A DNA stretch of 64,000 nucleotides from positions 558,001 to 622,000 of the forward strand of contig CABDVE010000001.1 in assembly GCA_901420285.1 (NCBI GenBank). The letters are read 5' to 3'. A model generated the notes under the pieces. It had not been told where the DNA came from, did no database searches, and was given only the letters and a program-made list of their open reading frames with translations. Origin of the DNA: Stutzerimonas stutzeri (GTDB lineage Bacteria > Pseudomonadota > Gammaproteobacteria > Enterobacterales > Pasteurellaceae). Below, in pieces: positions 5,841 to 12,878 of this stretch. Position 1 is the first letter of the stretch, and each line of letters opens with the position of its first letter. The position numbers and the translations under genes are program-made.

Positions 5841-6425
5841 ATGGAACAGATTGCTATTTCGGAAGCGGCGCAAGCGCATTTTCGCAAATTGTTAAGTACT
5901 CAAGAAGAGGGCACTAATATTCGTATTTTTGTGGTTAATCCCGGTACGCCGAATGCGGAGTGCGGTGTGTCTTATTGCCCACCGAATGCGGTAGAGGAAA
6001 GCGATATTGAAATGAAATATGACAATTTTTCCGCCTTTGTCGATGAAGTCAGTTTACCATTCTTAGAGGAAGCGGAAATTGATTATGTCACGGAGGAATT
6101 GGGTGCTCAATTAACACTTAAAGCGCCGAATGCCAAAATGCGTAAAGTGGCGGATGATGCACCGTTAATTGAACGCGTAGAATATGTCATTCAAACTCAA
6201 ATTAATCCGCAGCTTGCCAGTCACGGCGGACGTATTACCTTAATTGAGATCACCGAGGATGGCTACGCAATTTTACAATTCGGCGGTGGCTGTAACGGTT
6301 GCTCAATGGTGGATGTCACCTTAAAAGATGGGGTAGAAAAACAATTGATTAGTTTATTCCCGAACGAATTGAAAGGTGCAAAAGACGTAACGGAACATCA
6401 GCGCGGAGAGCATTCTTATTATTAA
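5841..6425 (+). CDS. nfuA: Fe/S biogenesis protein NfuA
   Basis: Iron-sulfur carrier that delivers [4Fe-4S] clusters to apoproteins, particularly under stress. It has 194 residues: a degenerate A-type scaffold domain (1-95) and a C-terminal Nfu domain with the cluster ligands CNGC at about residues 151-154. AAGGA precedes the ATG. It follows the com operon in the same direction with a 100-bp gap. Confidence 0.95.
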
Positions 6426-6454
6426 TCTTCCATTTCCGTTTAATTAATATGAAC

Positions 6455-6474
6455 AGGGGCGTATTTACGCCCCT
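6455..6474. terminator. Hairpin between convergent nfuA and asnC
   Basis: Perfect 9-bp stem AGGGGCGTA/TACGCCCCT with a 2-base loop, followed by a weak T-rich stretch. It lies between convergent genes and could serve both. Confidence 0.75.
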
Positions 6475-6489
6475 AATCATTTTCGGCAA

Positions 6490-6942
6490 TCATGGCTTTA
6501 TGTCCCGCAAAATCGGATTTTGCATTGAAATTAATGTTTCGGTGGACTGAATCTCATCAATTAGTTGAATCTTGGTTGCTAGCACGGAGTGCAATTCCGC
6601 AATGGTATGCGTCATTACTTTAATGAAAATCGAATAGTTTCCCGTAGTATAGTAAGCCTCAACCACCTCATCAAAAGTCTCTAATTGTTTAATCACTTTC
6701 TCATAATCTTTCGCGCTTTTCAAAATGATACCGATGAAACAGCACACATCGTAGCCGAGTTTACGTTCATCAATGATCACTTTGGTGCCTTCAATAATGC
6801 CGGACTGACGCATTTTTTCTACACGCACGTGAATAGTGCCGGGGCTGACGCCGAAGTTTTTTGCCATTTCGGCATAGGGAGTGCGGGCGTCTTTGGTGAG
6901 AACGCGGAGGATTTGTTGATCCAAATTGTCAATATTGTGCAT
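6490..6942 (-). CDS. asnC: Transcriptional regulator AsnC
   Basis: Lrp/AsnC-family regulator of 150 residues. It has an N-terminal winged helix-turn-helix (YAEMAKNFGVSPGTIHVRVE, about residues 23-42) and a C-terminal RAM/effector domain with IDEIQSTETLISMQNPI. The sequence is very close to E. coli AsnC, including GCFIGIILKSAKDY-like text. It is divergent from asnA, which it is known to activate in response to asparagine in E. coli. The AT-rich 156-bp intergenic region should carry its operator; I could not define the site. Confidence 0.95.
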   Translation of the reverse strand: MHNIDNLDQQILRVLTKDARTPYAEMAKNFGVSPGTIHVRVEKMRQSGIIEGTKVIIDERKLGYDVCCFIGIILKSAKDYEKVIKQLETFDEVVEAYYTTGNYSIFIKVMTHTIAELHSVLATKIQLIDEIQSTETLISMQNPILRDIKP

Positions 6943-7098
6943 GAAATAACTCCTTTTAAAGATTATCTAATTTTTTACCATCTATTTAAATAATATTCAA
7001 TATTAATTAATAGGTAAATAAAATACTTGAGCTATATGTTCATTTTGTTAAATAATACCTAATGAAATTTACTTCTTTTTTAAAAATAGGCGGAAAAT

Positions 7099-8152: not shown

Positions 8153-8195
8153 TGTTGGAGCACTTCATAGTCGCAGTGGCGACGGATCCGAACTT

Positions 8196-8244
8196 AACGT
8201 TATTCGGTAAACCCAAGCGGAATGGGCAAGCCGAATAACGTTTT
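8196..8244 (+). terminator. asnA terminator
   Basis: Perfect 12-bp stem AACGTTATTCGG / CCGAATAACGTT (8196-8207 and 8231-8242) ending in TTTT, with a long loop containing a further small CCC/GGG pairing. The rest of the 237-bp gap before the symporter gene has no open frame I trust. Confidence 0.8.
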
Positions 8245-8328
8245 AGCTTTGAGATATCGTCAATTTTATTGACTCGCTTTAAGATTTCATTATAGTTGAG
8301 TCCTTTTTATTTTTAACAGGAACATTTT

Positions 8329-9843
8329 ATGGCGCAATCCGCTCCGAAACGTGAGACCTTCTCCGGTCGTAATGCGTTTATTTTAGCCGCCATTGGCTCA
8401 GCCGTTGGGTTGGGTAACATTTGGCGTTTTCCTTACACCACCTATGAAAACGGCGGTGGTGCATTCATTATCCCTTACCTTATCGCGTTATTAACCGCGG
8501 GGATTCCGCTTTTATTTTTAGATTACGCAATCGGCCATCGTCACCGCGGTGGTGCACCGCTTTCTTATCGTCGCTTCAGCCCGCATTTCGAAGTGTTTGG
8601 TTGGTGGCAAGTGATGGTCAACGTGATTATCGGCTTGTACTATGCGGTCGTATTAGGTTGGGCAGCGAGCTATACTTATTTTTCCATCAACAGCGCATGG
8701 GGCGATAAACCGATCGACTTCTTTATTGGTGAATTCTTGAAAATGGGCGATATTGCTAACGGTGTAAGCTTTGATTTTGTCGGTATGGTGACCGGCCCGT
8801 TAATCGCGGTGTGGGTAGTTGCTTTGGGCGTATTGTCTTTAGGCATCCAAAAAGGGATCGCGAAATCCTCCGCCATTTTAATGCCTGTATTGGTGATTAT
8901 GTTCGTTGCTTTGGTGATTTATTCATTATTTCTACCGGGCGCAGCGAAAGGCTTAGATGCGTTATTTACCCCGGATTGGTCAAAACTTTCCAGTCCTAGC
9001 GTGTGGATTGCGGCATACGGTCAAATTTTCTTCTCGCTGTCCATTTGCTTCGGCATTATGGTGACCTACGCTTCTTATTTGAAGAAAGAATCGGATCTCA
9101 CTGGCAGTGGTTTAGTGGTTGGCTTTGCCAACAGTAGTTTTGAAGTGTTAGCCGGTATCGGCGTGTTTGCCGCATTGGGCTTTATCGCAACGGCTCAAGG
9201 GCAAGAAGTGAGCGAAGTGGCAAAAGGCGGCATCGGTTTGGCTTTCTTTGCCTTCCCGACCATCATCAACAAAGCACCGTTTGGCGAAATATTGGGCGTG
9301 TTGTTCTTCGGTTCGTTAACCTTTGCGGCATTAACTTCTTTCATCTCCGTTATCGAAGTCATCATCTCGGCGATTCAAGACAAACTCCGTATTCGTCGTG
9401 CAAAAGTGACCTTCATCGTGGGTGTACCAATGATGTTTGTTTCCGTGATTTTATTCGGTACCACAACGGGCTTACCGATGTTAGATGTATTCGATAAATT
9501 CGTGAACTATTTCGGTATCGTCGCTGTGGCATTTGTGTCATTAATTGCGATTGTGGCGAACGAAAAATTAGGTTTATTGGGCGATCACTTAAACGAAACC
9601 TCTTCTTTTAAAGTGGGCTTCTTCTGGCGTTTATGTATCGTTCTTACCACCGGCATTTTGGCGTTTATGTTGTTTAGCGAAGGCGCGAAAGTGTTTGCCG
9701 AAGGTTACGAAGGCTACCCGAGTTGGTTCGTAAATATCTTTGGCTGGGGGATGGTCGTAAGCTTGCTCGTGGTGGCGTTTATTCTTTCCCGCTTAAAATG
9801 GAAAAGCGAAACCAAATTAACGTTGGAAAGCAAAGGAGAATAG
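8329..9843 (+). CDS. Sodium-dependent amino-acid transporter, NSS (SNF) family
   Basis: Twelve-segment inner-membrane symporter of 504 residues of the neurotransmitter:sodium symporter family. The N-terminal motif [16 protein letters not shown] (residues 21-36) is the sodium/substrate-binding signature. Bacterial relatives with a small companion protein, such as MetP of Corynebacterium, import methionine and alanine. That substrate is inferred here from the adjacent tiny gene, not from the sequence itself. Confidence 0.93.
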
Positions 9844-9950: not shown

Positions 9951-9987
9951 ATAGGACCGCACTTCAATGCGGTCCTATTTTGTTTTT
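9951..9987 (+). terminator. Terminator built from an uptake signal
   Basis: Perfect 11-bp stem ATAGGACCGCA / TGCGGTCCTAT with a 6-base loop followed by TTTTGTTTTT. The left arm and loop contain ACCGCACTT, the complement of the canonical uptake signal AAGTGCGGT. The right arm reads TCAATGCGGT, matching the core of the dispersed 12-mer. Confidence 0.9.
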
Positions 9988-10084: not shown

Positions 10085-11137
10085 TTAGTTATTTTCTCCT
10101 CTTACTGCCTCAACCCAACGTTCAATTAACCGTTTACTTTCTACATCGGCGCCGAAGCGGATGAAGTCAATGTCCAATAAATTGAGTTTGGTCGGATCAC
10201 TGGCTTTAGGGGAGGCTTTGGCGTGAATATTGGTAGGGATTTGGTAAGAATCGGATTCCCGCCATGGGATTTCTTGCGCTTCGGTGTCGAGGACGAAATC
10301 CACAAAATGTTTAGCGTTTTCAAGATTGCGTGCTCCTTTGATGATACTGACTGCGCCCAATGTGTAGCCGACACCTTCGCAAGGCAAAATGCCTTTTACC
10401 GGTGCGCCTTTGTCTTTTTCACGCACATAGCTGTGCATAAAGGATATGTCAACAGCCACTTCACCGGTGGCTAAATTACCGGTTGCCAATCCGCTTTTGG
10501 AATATTGCGCCACATTGGTATTGAGTTTTTTCAAGTAATCAAAGGCTTTTTCTTCACCCCAAAGTTGAACCAGTGTGGTGAGTAATGAATAGCCGGTGCC
10601 GGAAACGCGCGGATCGGCGTATTGGATTAGGTTTTTGAATTCGGGCTTGAGTAAGTCGGTAAAGCATTTGGGTTCAGGAATATTCAGCTGTTTTAATTTC
10701 TCCGTGTTCACACCGATGGCGACTTCCATCAAATAAATGATTGAGGTGTAATCACCCCGTTCGTCCATTAATTTTTTAAATTGCGGCATGATGTCTTTTT
10801 GTAATGGGGAACGATAGGAGGCGAGTAAGCCTTGATCGGCAGCTTGTAAGTGAGGTTCAAAGGTACCGCCAAACCAGACGTCTGCCTGCGGGTTGTCTTT
10901 TTCCGCTTTGATTTTGCCAAGTACGGCGCCGGTGCTGTTGCGTACAAATTTCGCATCGACCTTATATTTTTCGGCAAAACGTTGGGTGACTTTTTCACAC
11001 GTGACATTTTGCACGCTGCAATAAATGGTCAGTTTGCCTTCCGCCTGGGCACCTTGTGTATAAAAAAGCATTGGAAGCAGGCAAAATACGGCCGTTTTTA
11101 ATGATGTTTTTGAGCGATTTTTAGAAAGCTTGGACAT
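10085..11137 (-). CDS. Periplasmic solute-binding protein, AfuA/FbpA-like, under TPP riboswitch
   Basis: A 350-residue extracellular solute-binding protein with a signal peptide (cleavage near TQGAQAEG, residues 28-35) and an iron/sugar-phosphate type fold (LTIYCSVQNVTCEKV, DVWFGGTFEPH, YADPRVSGTGYSLL). The family includes ferric-ion (FbpA) and hexose-phosphate (AfuA) binders. The leader holds a TPP riboswitch, so thiamine, a phosphorylated thiamine or a precursor is a plausible ligand (inference). It does not resemble E. coli ThiB closely. No permease or ATPase gene accompanies it. The start at 11137 follows AAGGA. Confidence 0.85.
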   Translation of the reverse strand: MSKLSKNRSKTSLKTAVFCLLPMLFYTQGAQAEGKLTIYCSVQNVTCEKVTQRFAEKYKVDAKFVRNSTGAVLGKIKAEKDNPQADVWFGGTFEPHLQAADQGLLASYRSPLQKDIMPQFKKLMDERGDYTSIIYLMEVAIGVNTEKLKQLNIPEPKCFTDLLKPEFKNLIQYADPRVSGTGYSLLTTLVQLWGEEKAFDYLKKLNTNVAQYSKSGLATGNLATGEVAVDISFMHSYVREKDKGAPVKGILPCEGVGYTLGAVSIIKGARNLENAKHFVDFVLDTEAQEIPWRESDSYQIPTNIHAKASPKASDPTKLNLLDIDFIRFGADVESKRLIERWVEAVRGENN

Positions 11138-11236
11138 TGGTTTAATCCTTAGTGAAGATTGAAAAACAATACCGGCTAACAGCTAAACGGGGGAAAACGG
11201 CTTGAAATAAGCCTTGGAAAAGCAGAGTGAAGTGCA

Positions 11237-11321
11237 TTAGTTTCCTACGTCAGTGCTAACTGTATCAGGTTCACGGGTATTTCTCAGCCCGATTGTTTGC
11301 GCAACCGAGCACCCCGACTAA
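11237..11321 (-). promoter_or_regulatory. TPP (thiamine pyrophosphate) riboswitch
   Basis: Read on the minus strand, the region contains the conserved THI-box elements in order: P1 strand TTAGT, then CGGGGTGC, GGCTGAGA, ATACCC, GAACCTGAT, a TAGCACTGACGTAGGAA segment, and the closing P1 strand ACTAA. About 100 bases separate it from the start codon of the downstream binding-protein gene, enough for an expression platform. It should lower expression when TPP is plentiful. Confidence 0.93.
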
Positions 11322-11339
11322 CGGGCGTTACTATAGGCG

Positions 11340-11623
11340 TTTGTTACGGATTTGTAAACGGATAAGACGAGTTTGAGAGACATTTTGATGCATCTAAGAG
11401 CAGCCAAAAGATAAAGGAAATTGGATCTTCCGCAGAGCACCGCATTGAAGCCTTATTTTATGCACAGGTTTCTTTCCAACAGCGGAAGCGATAATACTTT
11501 TAAGCAAAGAGGGCATAATTTCTATGCCGCATCGTCAGTTGAATTGGAAAGCGCAATCTCAAACGGGAAATATTGCGATTATATTGGTGCCCAGGCGGCT
11601 TCTGTTTTGGCAAATCGATCGCT
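11340..11623. other. Gene-free stretch with one dispersed 12-mer
   Basis: The region between the riboswitch and the YdcZ-like gene. It has an exact 12-mer copy at 11437-11448 in the context GCAGAGCACCGCATTGAAGCC (positions 11433-11453). Short open frames exist on the plus strand (about 11421-11627 and from 11534), but none resembles a protein I know. They may be remnants or chance. Confidence 0.5.
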
Positions 11624-12097
11624 TTAACTTTTCAGCAACGCGATGACTTTATCGCCGAAGAAATAGAATATCAGGCCGAAGGCGACAATCATCAAACCGA
11701 TAAGTTTAACAAGGTTTATTTCACGCACCGGCATACCGATTAAGCCGAAGTGATCGATCGTGGCGGCGGAAAGCAGTTGACCGATAATAATAAAAAATAG
11801 CATGGCGGTAATGCCGAGTTTGGGTGCTAATAAAACGGTGCTGAATACCACGCCTGCACCGAGTACGCCGCCCAGCAATTTCCACCAAGGCTGCTGCGGA
11901 ATCTCACTCAATCCGCCCCATAAATCTGTTTTAAACAGCGCGATAATAAATAACAAAATGGTGCCGACGGCAAAAGAAATGAAGGTCGCGACGAGCGGTT
12001 CGCCGCCCACCGCTTTAGCCAATTGCGTATTAATAGCAGATTGCGACGCCAATGCGGTGCCCGCCGCCAAAGCAAGCAGAAGATAAACAAAAAACAT
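11624..12097 (-). CDS. DMT-type membrane transporter, YdcZ/DUF606 family
   Basis: Inner-membrane protein of 157 residues with five predicted hydrophobic helices. The N-terminal LLLALAAGTALASQSAINTQLAK is typical of the DUF606 (YdcZ) half-size drug/metabolite transporter family, whose members often work as homo- or heterodimers. The substrate is unknown. It stands alone, with dispersed-repeat hairpin DNA upstream at 12205-12254. Confidence 0.85.
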   Translation of the reverse strand: MFFVYLLLALAAGTALASQSAINTQLAKAVGGEPLVATFISFAVGTILLFIIALFKTDLWGGLSEIPQQPWWKLLGGVLGAGVVFSTVLLAPKLGITAMLFFIIIGQLLSAATIDHFGLIGMPVREINLVKLIGLMIVAFGLIFYFFGDKVIALLKS

Positions 12098-12266: not shown

Positions 12267-12878
12267 TTAGTTCACTTTCAATTCACTTTGGGCTTGATGG
12301 ATTACTGCCACGGCCCCACTTATGCTTAATCCACCGATCACGGTTGCCACGAGTAAATCGGGTAAGTTGGATTGGGTAAAATACACTGCACCTGCCGCAG
12401 CAATAACCAATAAATTACCAATCGCATCGTTACGCGAACAAATCCATACGCCGCGCATATTACTATCACCTTCGCGGTATTTGTAAAGTAATAAGGCGGA
12501 AATGACGTTTGCGACCAAGGCAAGTATGCCGATTAAGCTCATTTTATGATAACTTGGCAAACTGCCTAGCCACCATAAATACGCACTTGAGCCTAGCACC
12601 CATACACCGAAAATTGCCATCGTGTAGCCTTTGAGTAAAGACGCTTTTGCACGTACTGATAACGCCATTGAAAGCACAAACAAGCTAATTCCATAATTGC
12701 TAGCGTCGCCTAGAAAATCCAACGAATCCGCCAATAACGAGGCAGAGTCGGCGTTTACGCCACTGATGATTTCTACCAAAAACATTCCAAAGTTAATGGC
12801 AAATACTGTCCATAAAATATAGCGATAATATTGTGAAACAGCTGTTTCACAATGATGAGAAGAACAACAATCTTTCAT
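12267..12878 (-). CDS. Cation efflux protein, CDF-like, MerR-controlled
   Basis: Inner-membrane protein of 203 residues with about six hydrophobic helices. The motif SLLADSLDFLGDASNYGISL (residues 48-67) matches helix 2 of cation diffusion facilitators, with metal-site aspartates D52, D55 and D59. It lacks the C-terminal cytoplasmic domain of full-length CDF pumps. N-terminal CCSSHHCET could bind metal. It is transcribed divergently from a MerR-type regulator through a promoter with the 19-bp spacer typical of MerR control. Likely metal is zinc, cadmium or cobalt (inference). Confidence 0.85.
   Translation of the reverse strand: MKDCCSSHHCETAVSQYYRYILWTVFAINFGMFLVEIISGVNADSASLLADSLDFLGDASNYGISLFVLSMALSVRAKASLLKGYTMAIFGVWVLGSSAYLWWLGSLPSYHKMSLIGILALVANVISALLLYKYREGDSNMRGVWICSRNDAIGNLLVIAAAGAVYFTQSNLPDLLVATVIGGLSISGAVAVIHQAQSELKVN

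Follow-up and report, generated by a model that had tools for sequence, protein, structure and literature searches.

The window analysed here, a 64,000-nucleotide stretch of a Pasteurellaceae genome, contains an orphan receptor of the P5PA/AfuA type that is real, conserved and under riboswitch control. The TPP riboswitch, the protein family, the conservation without a permease and the retained phosphate site can all be read from the sequence. A thiamine-pathway ligand and a partnership with the AfuBC permease-ATPase are well motivated by the sequence comparisons given below. We tentatively propose a new class of thiamine-precursor receptor, permease-less and TPP-repressed, that would derive from a vitamin-B6-phosphate receptor, capture HMP phosphate and possibly thiazole phosphate, and borrow AfuBC.

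Table 1 Features of the binding-protein locus (window positions)
Feature	Position	Strand	Basis or detail
SNF-family Na+ symporter, neighbour	8329-9843	+	
Inverted repeat, 11 bp, 6-nt loop, holding AAGTGCGGT; possible terminator	9951-9978	.	Sequence reading
Orphan periplasmic binding protein (350 aa) of the P5PA/AfuA family	10085-11137	-	ORF, family and structure comparison
Predicted Sec signal peptide, residues 1-32, ...AQA before EGKL	11042-11137	-	Sequence reading
Aptamer-to-start-codon leader, probable expression platform, Shine-Dalgarno-like AAGGAT	11138-11224	-	Folding
TPP riboswitch aptamer (THI element)	11225-11326	-	Rfam RF00059
Candidate sigma-70 promoter	11330-11358	-	TTTACA-N17-TATAGT, 10/12 consensus matches
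YdcZ-family exporter, neighbour	11624-12097	-	
CDF-like protein, neighbour	12267-12878	-	

The aptamer matched RF00059 with 61.3 bits (gathering score 54.3; E-value 1.4 × 10−9) and covers model positions 1-105 without truncation, one arm being gapped at 11 consensus positions. The sequence-only reading, which had called the aptamer complete, was correct in this; its span of 10085-11321 holds the gene and the aptamer but misses five bases of the Rfam match. The candidate promoter ends at 11330, immediately before the aptamer, and a consensus scan of the region found two sigma-70-like sites against 3.1 expected, which is no excess. The binding-protein ORF follows the aptamer after 87 nt. The neighbours of the ORF (Table 1) include no ABC permease or ATPase, as had been claimed for a lone gene, and no p5pB-type permease was found beside it within the window at an E-value of 1e-100. 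The inverted repeat lies between the convergent symporter and binding-protein genes, with AAGTGCGGT, which we take to be the Haemophilus-type uptake signal, at 9956 on the minus strand. This repeat is absent from the sites listed by the terminator scan, and the same scan scored no terminator between aptamer and gene on the minus strand.

When the leader was folded with the aptamer enforced, the unpaired fraction fell from 57 % to 8 % for the AUG and from 32 % to 22 % for the Shine-Dalgarno sequence. Without the enforced aptamer, the downstream leader pairs with the 3' half of the aptamer. These predicted folds are compatible with translational repression by TPP. As the leader fold was no better than shuffles (z-score −0.51), we infer the direction and mode of regulation from the riboswitch class. 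At high cytoplasmic TPP, the folded aptamer would most likely hide the start codon and lower translation; at low TPP, the binding protein would be made and exported.

By Pfam, the window protein belongs to the extracellular solute-binding proteins. It is not ThiB, in agreement with the earlier reading: it scored 62.5 bits against the ThiB family TIGR01254, below the cut-off of 93.4, and shared 27 % identity over 145 aa with the ThiB of the host. It was also below the NCBIfam cut-offs for 2-aminoethylphosphonate binders. The best solved relative is P5PA, a pyridoxal-5'-phosphate (PLP) binder (E-value 1.9 × 10−129), followed by the hexose-phosphate binders VcA0625 and AfuA. Identity is 58-59 % to P5PA (6WCE), 58 % to a P5PA-type protein from Actinobacillus capsulatus (323 aa aligned), 50 % to AfuA (50-52 % for AfuA and VcA0625 together) and about 14-21 % to ferric binders. 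This corrects the AfuA/FbpA-type assignment made earlier: P5PA, and neither an iron nor a sugar-phosphate binder, is the closest characterised relative. The window protein falls short of the 65 % identity that the authors of P5PA set as their family limit (PMC8427247).

The structure prediction that had been suggested as a check gave an AlphaFold model (pLDDT 90.5) closest to P5PA (Z 45.6; rmsd 1.9 over 313 residues) and then to AfuA (Z 44.5), with the best ferric binders at Z 31-34 and ThiB (2QRY) at Z 30.5. Since the gap between P5PA and AfuA is about one Z unit, the fold does not separate them, whereas the sequence does (58 % vs 50 %).

Pocket residues are given in P5PA numbering, in which mature residue 1 corresponds to window residue 33 and residues 1-314 of 6WCE align to model residues 33-346; the phosphate and ring contacts are those defined in PMC8427247. 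All five phosphate residues (T37, S147, G148, T149 and S183) and the ring residues Y103, H203 and Q267 are identical in the window protein and P5PA. G36 and L105 in the ring environment of P5PA are S36 and M105 in the window protein. Mutation of Y103, T149 or H203 reduced the PLP affinity of P5PA, and for H203 the Kd went from about 0.03 to 10 µM (PMC8427247 Table 3). The equivalents of AfuA D206 and E229, of which the alanine mutants abolished G6P binding (PMC8427247), are S204 and T227 in the window protein, and the AfuA1 of the host keeps D and E. From these residues, the pocket looks built for a phosphorylated ring and not for a hexose phosphate, with a ring side altered from that of P5PA.

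Conservation was surveyed in 140 Pasteurellaceae genomes. A carrier is defined as a genome with a clade A or clade B gene as assigned by tree, among the matches listed (some listed ones of about 53-58 % identity were left unplaced), and a linked gene as one with a TPP riboswitch just upstream on the same strand. Infernal riboswitch scans covered 95 genomes (46 + 49), including all carriers. Among the matches listed, 58 of the 140 genomes carry the gene clade and 39 of these 58 have the riboswitch upstream, in nine genus codes; a motif check of all 58 agreed. The arrangement of riboswitch and gene is far beyond chance. Three linked riboswitches were below the gathering score (G066, 52.2 bits; G126, 53.4 bits; G058, 49.0 bits). 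Named examples include Aggregatibacter segnis, A. kilianii, A. actinomycetemcomitans, Lonepinella koalarum, Pasteurella bettyae, Avibacterium and Necropsobacter.

In a tree of 80 rows, the two riboswitch-linked clades, A with 46 rows (support 100) and B with 13 rows (support 98), were joined (SH-aLRT 86) apart from the P5PA group. The addition of 40 more rows returned the same two clades and the same 58 genomes. Six changes of the riboswitch label are needed on the 80-row tree, and a single gain plus several losses is possible. Unlinked rows are often on long branches (0.41 for G089 and 0.30 for G080). Riboswitch remnants were searched with a lowered Rfam threshold in ten loci: seven unlinked carriers supplied eight of them, and the P5PA-like relative G010 and the linked G066 one each. 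The only TPP match was the known one in G066.

Among the matches listed, residue 203 is His in 28 of the 39 linked carriers, Asn in 11 (eight of clade B and three of clade A) and Leu in none; in the 19 unlinked carriers it is Leu in 13, Asn in three and His in three. The ring site is therefore not uniform, as 11 linked members have Asn, and few events lie behind the loss of H203, as 11 of the 13 Leu belong to g22 genomes. All 11 genomes of g22, an H. parainfluenzae-group code (including L015:5992-7038), have Leu at 203 and no riboswitch, hinting at an altered ligand in that group. S183 and S147 alternate between Ser and Thr across the 39 linked genomes among the matches listed. Glu at mature position 106 is characteristic of clade A, where 47 of 48 members have it and the remaining one has Asp; it was dropped as a ligand contact because, by the predicted strand 132-144, it should point away from Y103 and M105.

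No AfuB-type permease was found beside clade A or B genes in the fetched flanks (up to 6 kb for named loci and 1.5 kb for others), whereas P5PA-type and AfuA-type genes have AfuB-type permeases alongside in such flanks. Parts of thiBPQ lie a few kb from the gene in three relatives (L013, L019 and L034), and distant AfuC-like ATPases (26-38 %) at a similar distance in L015-L018 and L050. In G102 (L110:10707-15582), a same-strand cluster of thiM, thiD, thiB, thiP and thiQ ends about 4.5 kb from the riboswitch-linked gene. Besides the linked-clade gene, Aggregatibacter genomes encode a further P5PA-like protein with a permease and an ATPase of its own. Two binding proteins close together, only one of each pair with a TPP riboswitch, were observed in Avibacterium (L029:5926-6984 and 8178-9233) and Necropsobacter (L034:4555-5580 and 5902-6966); in the tree, the Avibacterium partner groups with P5PA-like rows and the Necropsobacter partner is inside clade B. 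The window gene is 90-92 % identical to Aggregatibacter orthologs and about 63-71 % identical to those in other species of the genus code of the host, and the host AfuB is 95 % identical to the AfuB of two Aggregatibacter-coded genomes. Either transfer or an odd genus assignment would account for an Aggregatibacter-like gene and AfuB in the host.

The only AfuB-type permease of the host is about 255 kb away, outside the window, in afuA1-afuA2-afuB-afuC. AfuB-type matches (E-value up to 1e-100) were found in 128 of the 140 genomes and, among the matches listed, in 58/58 carriers (incomplete or interrupted in G024, G079 and G123) compared with 70/82 others (p = 0.0014, uncorrected for kinship), which fits the earlier suggestion of a permease encoded elsewhere. 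The 12 AfuB-less genomes include no carrier among the matches listed, and 11 of them are without any AfuA/P5PA-type binder at an E-value of 1e-60 among the matches listed, so this co-absence concerns the whole binder family and is not specific to the gene. In genus g19, the three AfuB-less genomes are exactly those without the gene among the matches listed. In E. coli at low PLP, rescue by P5PAB depended on AfuC of the hexose-phosphate system (PMC8427247). From the genomes compared, AfuBC would be the most economical partner; ThiPQ may be an alternative. The earlier reading had also suggested looking for another TPP riboswitch ahead of an orphan permease-ATPase pair, and the host genome scan showed none there: it gave two TPP riboswitches, that of the window and one before thiBPQ-bioB.

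The host has thiD and thiE, both without a riboswitch (L100:7020-8481), and in Aggregatibacter G017 each of the two genes has a TPP riboswitch upstream. Searches of the host for ThiC, ThiG, TenA and PF02110 (ThiM) gave no match, and by its gene content the host is predicted to be unable to make the pyrimidine half of vitamin B1. Among the matches listed, ThiD was over the cut-off in 37, ThiE in 36 and ThiM in 27 of the 39 linked genomes. In ten linked genomes, among them the host, ThiD and ThiE are present but neither ThiM nor true ThiG is found among the matches listed, and TenA is also missing in seven of the ten. Intact ThiC was found in five of the 140 genomes and in no carrier among the matches listed; one genome of the same genus, G117, has ThiC and is without the gene among the matches listed. 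In the carrier G119 (C1:1535424-1536307), a sub-threshold TPP riboswitch is followed by broken thiC and thiG fragments, which we read from the sequence as a thiamine operon undergoing decay in this relative of the host. Twelve carriers are without ThiD among the matches listed, ten unlinked and two linked (G059 and G126). The ten unlinked ones keep the gene open and hold a TPP riboswitch elsewhere.

Associations were calculated among the matches listed, and none of the p values is corrected for kinship. Within the 58 carriers, ThiD was present in 37 and absent in two of the linked, compared with nine and ten of the unlinked (p = 8 × 10−5), and across the 140 genomes ThiD was found in 37/39 with a linked gene compared with 71/101 others (p = 0.0014). 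Presence of the gene as such was not associated with ThiD (46/58 carriers vs 62/82 others; p = 0.69), and its relation to intact ThiC (0/58 vs 5/82; p = 0.076) was not significant alone. An independent-pairs test on the tree with 52 carrier rows had three usable pairs, of which on average 2.2 agreed, none disagreed and 0.8 showed no difference. As three pairs cannot reach significance, the link between riboswitch and ThiD is suggestive only.

The explanation that we favour, at somewhat below even confidence, is a TPP-repressed P5PA paralogue that would bring a phosphorylated thiamine-pathway compound, most likely HMP phosphate, to AfuBC; both ligand and permease partner are what we infer from the comparisons above. 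The gene would have split off the P5PA lineage and acquired TPP riboswitch control within the Pasteurellaceae. The exported protein would bind a small ring compound from the thiamine pathway, in phosphorylated form, and pass it to the AfuBC permease-ATPase, also used by hexose-phosphate binders, and ThiD and ThiE would turn imported HMP phosphate into thiamine monophosphate. HMP phosphate and PLP share the layout of methyl, ring and CH2-phosphate. HMP phosphate is preferred because of this PLP-like layout, because riboswitch linkage goes with ThiD and because carriers are without intact ThiC. Furthermore, the host already has a riboswitch-controlled thiBPQ; thiamine uptake is therefore covered and a phosphorylated precursor fits better. 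G059 and G126 speak against HMP phosphate in those two genomes, as this ligand would be useless without ThiD, and TMP/TPP or PLP better explain the twelve ThiD-less carriers.

The first of these alternatives, a second receptor for TMP, TPP or thiamine beside ThiB that would use AfuBC or ThiPQ, is unlikely in our estimate. It would agree with the direct control by TPP, with the persistence of the gene in ThiD-less genomes, which should be able to use thiamine compounds only, and with the nearby thiBPQ locus in three relatives. However, the host has its riboswitch-controlled thiBPQ, the pocket and family are P5PA-like and not ThiB-like, and in 10 of the 12 ThiD-less carriers the gene has no riboswitch, while a TPP riboswitch is present elsewhere in the genome.

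We rank next, as rather improbable, a protein that is still a PLP binder with the function of P5PA, the riboswitch merely coupling B6 salvage to the B1 state. Retention of the gene in ThiD-less genomes would be accounted for in this way, and the 58 % identity to a P5PA-type protein and the kept Y103, T149, H203 and Q267 agree with PLP. No reason is given thereby for TPP control in nine genera, P5PA G36 and L105 are replaced, Aggregatibacter has its separate P5PA-like system besides the gene, and H203 is mostly gone where the riboswitch is gone (16/19 among the matches listed).

Third, and doubtful, is thiazole phosphate (HET-P) imported ready-made, which ThiE would join to the HMP diphosphate that ThiD produces from HMP taken up by the cell. 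HET-P is favoured by the ten linked genomes in which ThiE has no visible source of thiazole phosphate; the import would fill this gap in the host and the nine others without PF02110 (ThiM) or true ThiG, and the phosphate site is kept. Against it, 27 of the 39 linked genomes do have ThiM among the matches listed. By general chemistry, the ring of HET-P is five-membered and its arm is longer than a PLP-type CH2-phosphate, while the P5PA pocket takes a six-membered ring with CH2-phosphate. An ordinary hexose-phosphate or ferric-ion binder with a chance or decaying riboswitch insertion agrees with the 50 % identity to AfuA and is nevertheless very improbable, as the counterparts of D206 and E229, which G6P binding needs, are lost and the riboswitch is kept in 39/58 carriers among the matches listed.

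When compared with known systems, P5PA of Actinobacillus pleuropneumoniae (6WCE, p5pAB; PMC8427247) is the closest solved relative by sequence and fold and shares the phosphate-site and main ring residues. The P5PAB work also used an ATPase borrowed from afu (PMC8427247), a likeness to the proposed AfuBC partnership. Unlike P5PA, the window protein is below 65 % identity, has no adjacent p5pB, carries S36 and M105 and is under a TPP riboswitch, a feature absent from all P5PA-lineage rows of the trees. AfuA (4R73/4R74) and VcA0625 (8X1A) share with it 50-52 % identity, the fold (Z 44) and the phosphate pocket, and AfuA also the AfuBC permease of the host genome as probable partner, whereas the missing D206/E229 equivalents, a location outside the afu operon and the riboswitch control set it apart from AfuA. 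ThiB (TbpA, 2QRY) of ThiBPQ is similar in general fold (Z 30.5) and TPP riboswitch control but not in sequence, which is only weakly similar and under the family cut-off; no thiPQ adjoins the window gene, and the true thiBPQ of the host is elsewhere.

ThiXYZ, CytX and YkoEDC for HMP and ThiW and ThiU for HET are the transporters given in PMC6593275 (Table 1), and that table includes no transporter for the phosphorylated halves and no P5PA/AfuA-type receptor. If our reading is right, the window protein would share with these different systems the uptake of TPP-pathway precursors. A precedent for confusion between HMP and B6 vitamers as ligands of one transporter is HmpT/PdxU2, an unrelated ECF S-component that was thought to be an HMP carrier and whose bound ligand proved to be pyridoxamine (PMC4860826); such ligand guesses can therefore fail. 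We found no prior report in the literature searched of the gene under a TPP riboswitch, and an earlier listing in the regulon supplement of PMC3766115 is possible. The words thiamin and riboswitch do not occur in PMC8427247.

If the HMP phosphate reading is true, thiamine-pyrimidine auxotrophs of animal mucosae could salvage building blocks that are already phosphorylated. This would explain how the pathway is fed in Pasteurellaceae that have ThiD and ThiE and are without ThiC, ThiG and sometimes ThiM. It would also mean that a receptor has switched between a phosphate of vitamin B6 and a precursor of vitamin B1, and that one ABC permease serves several receptors under different controls.
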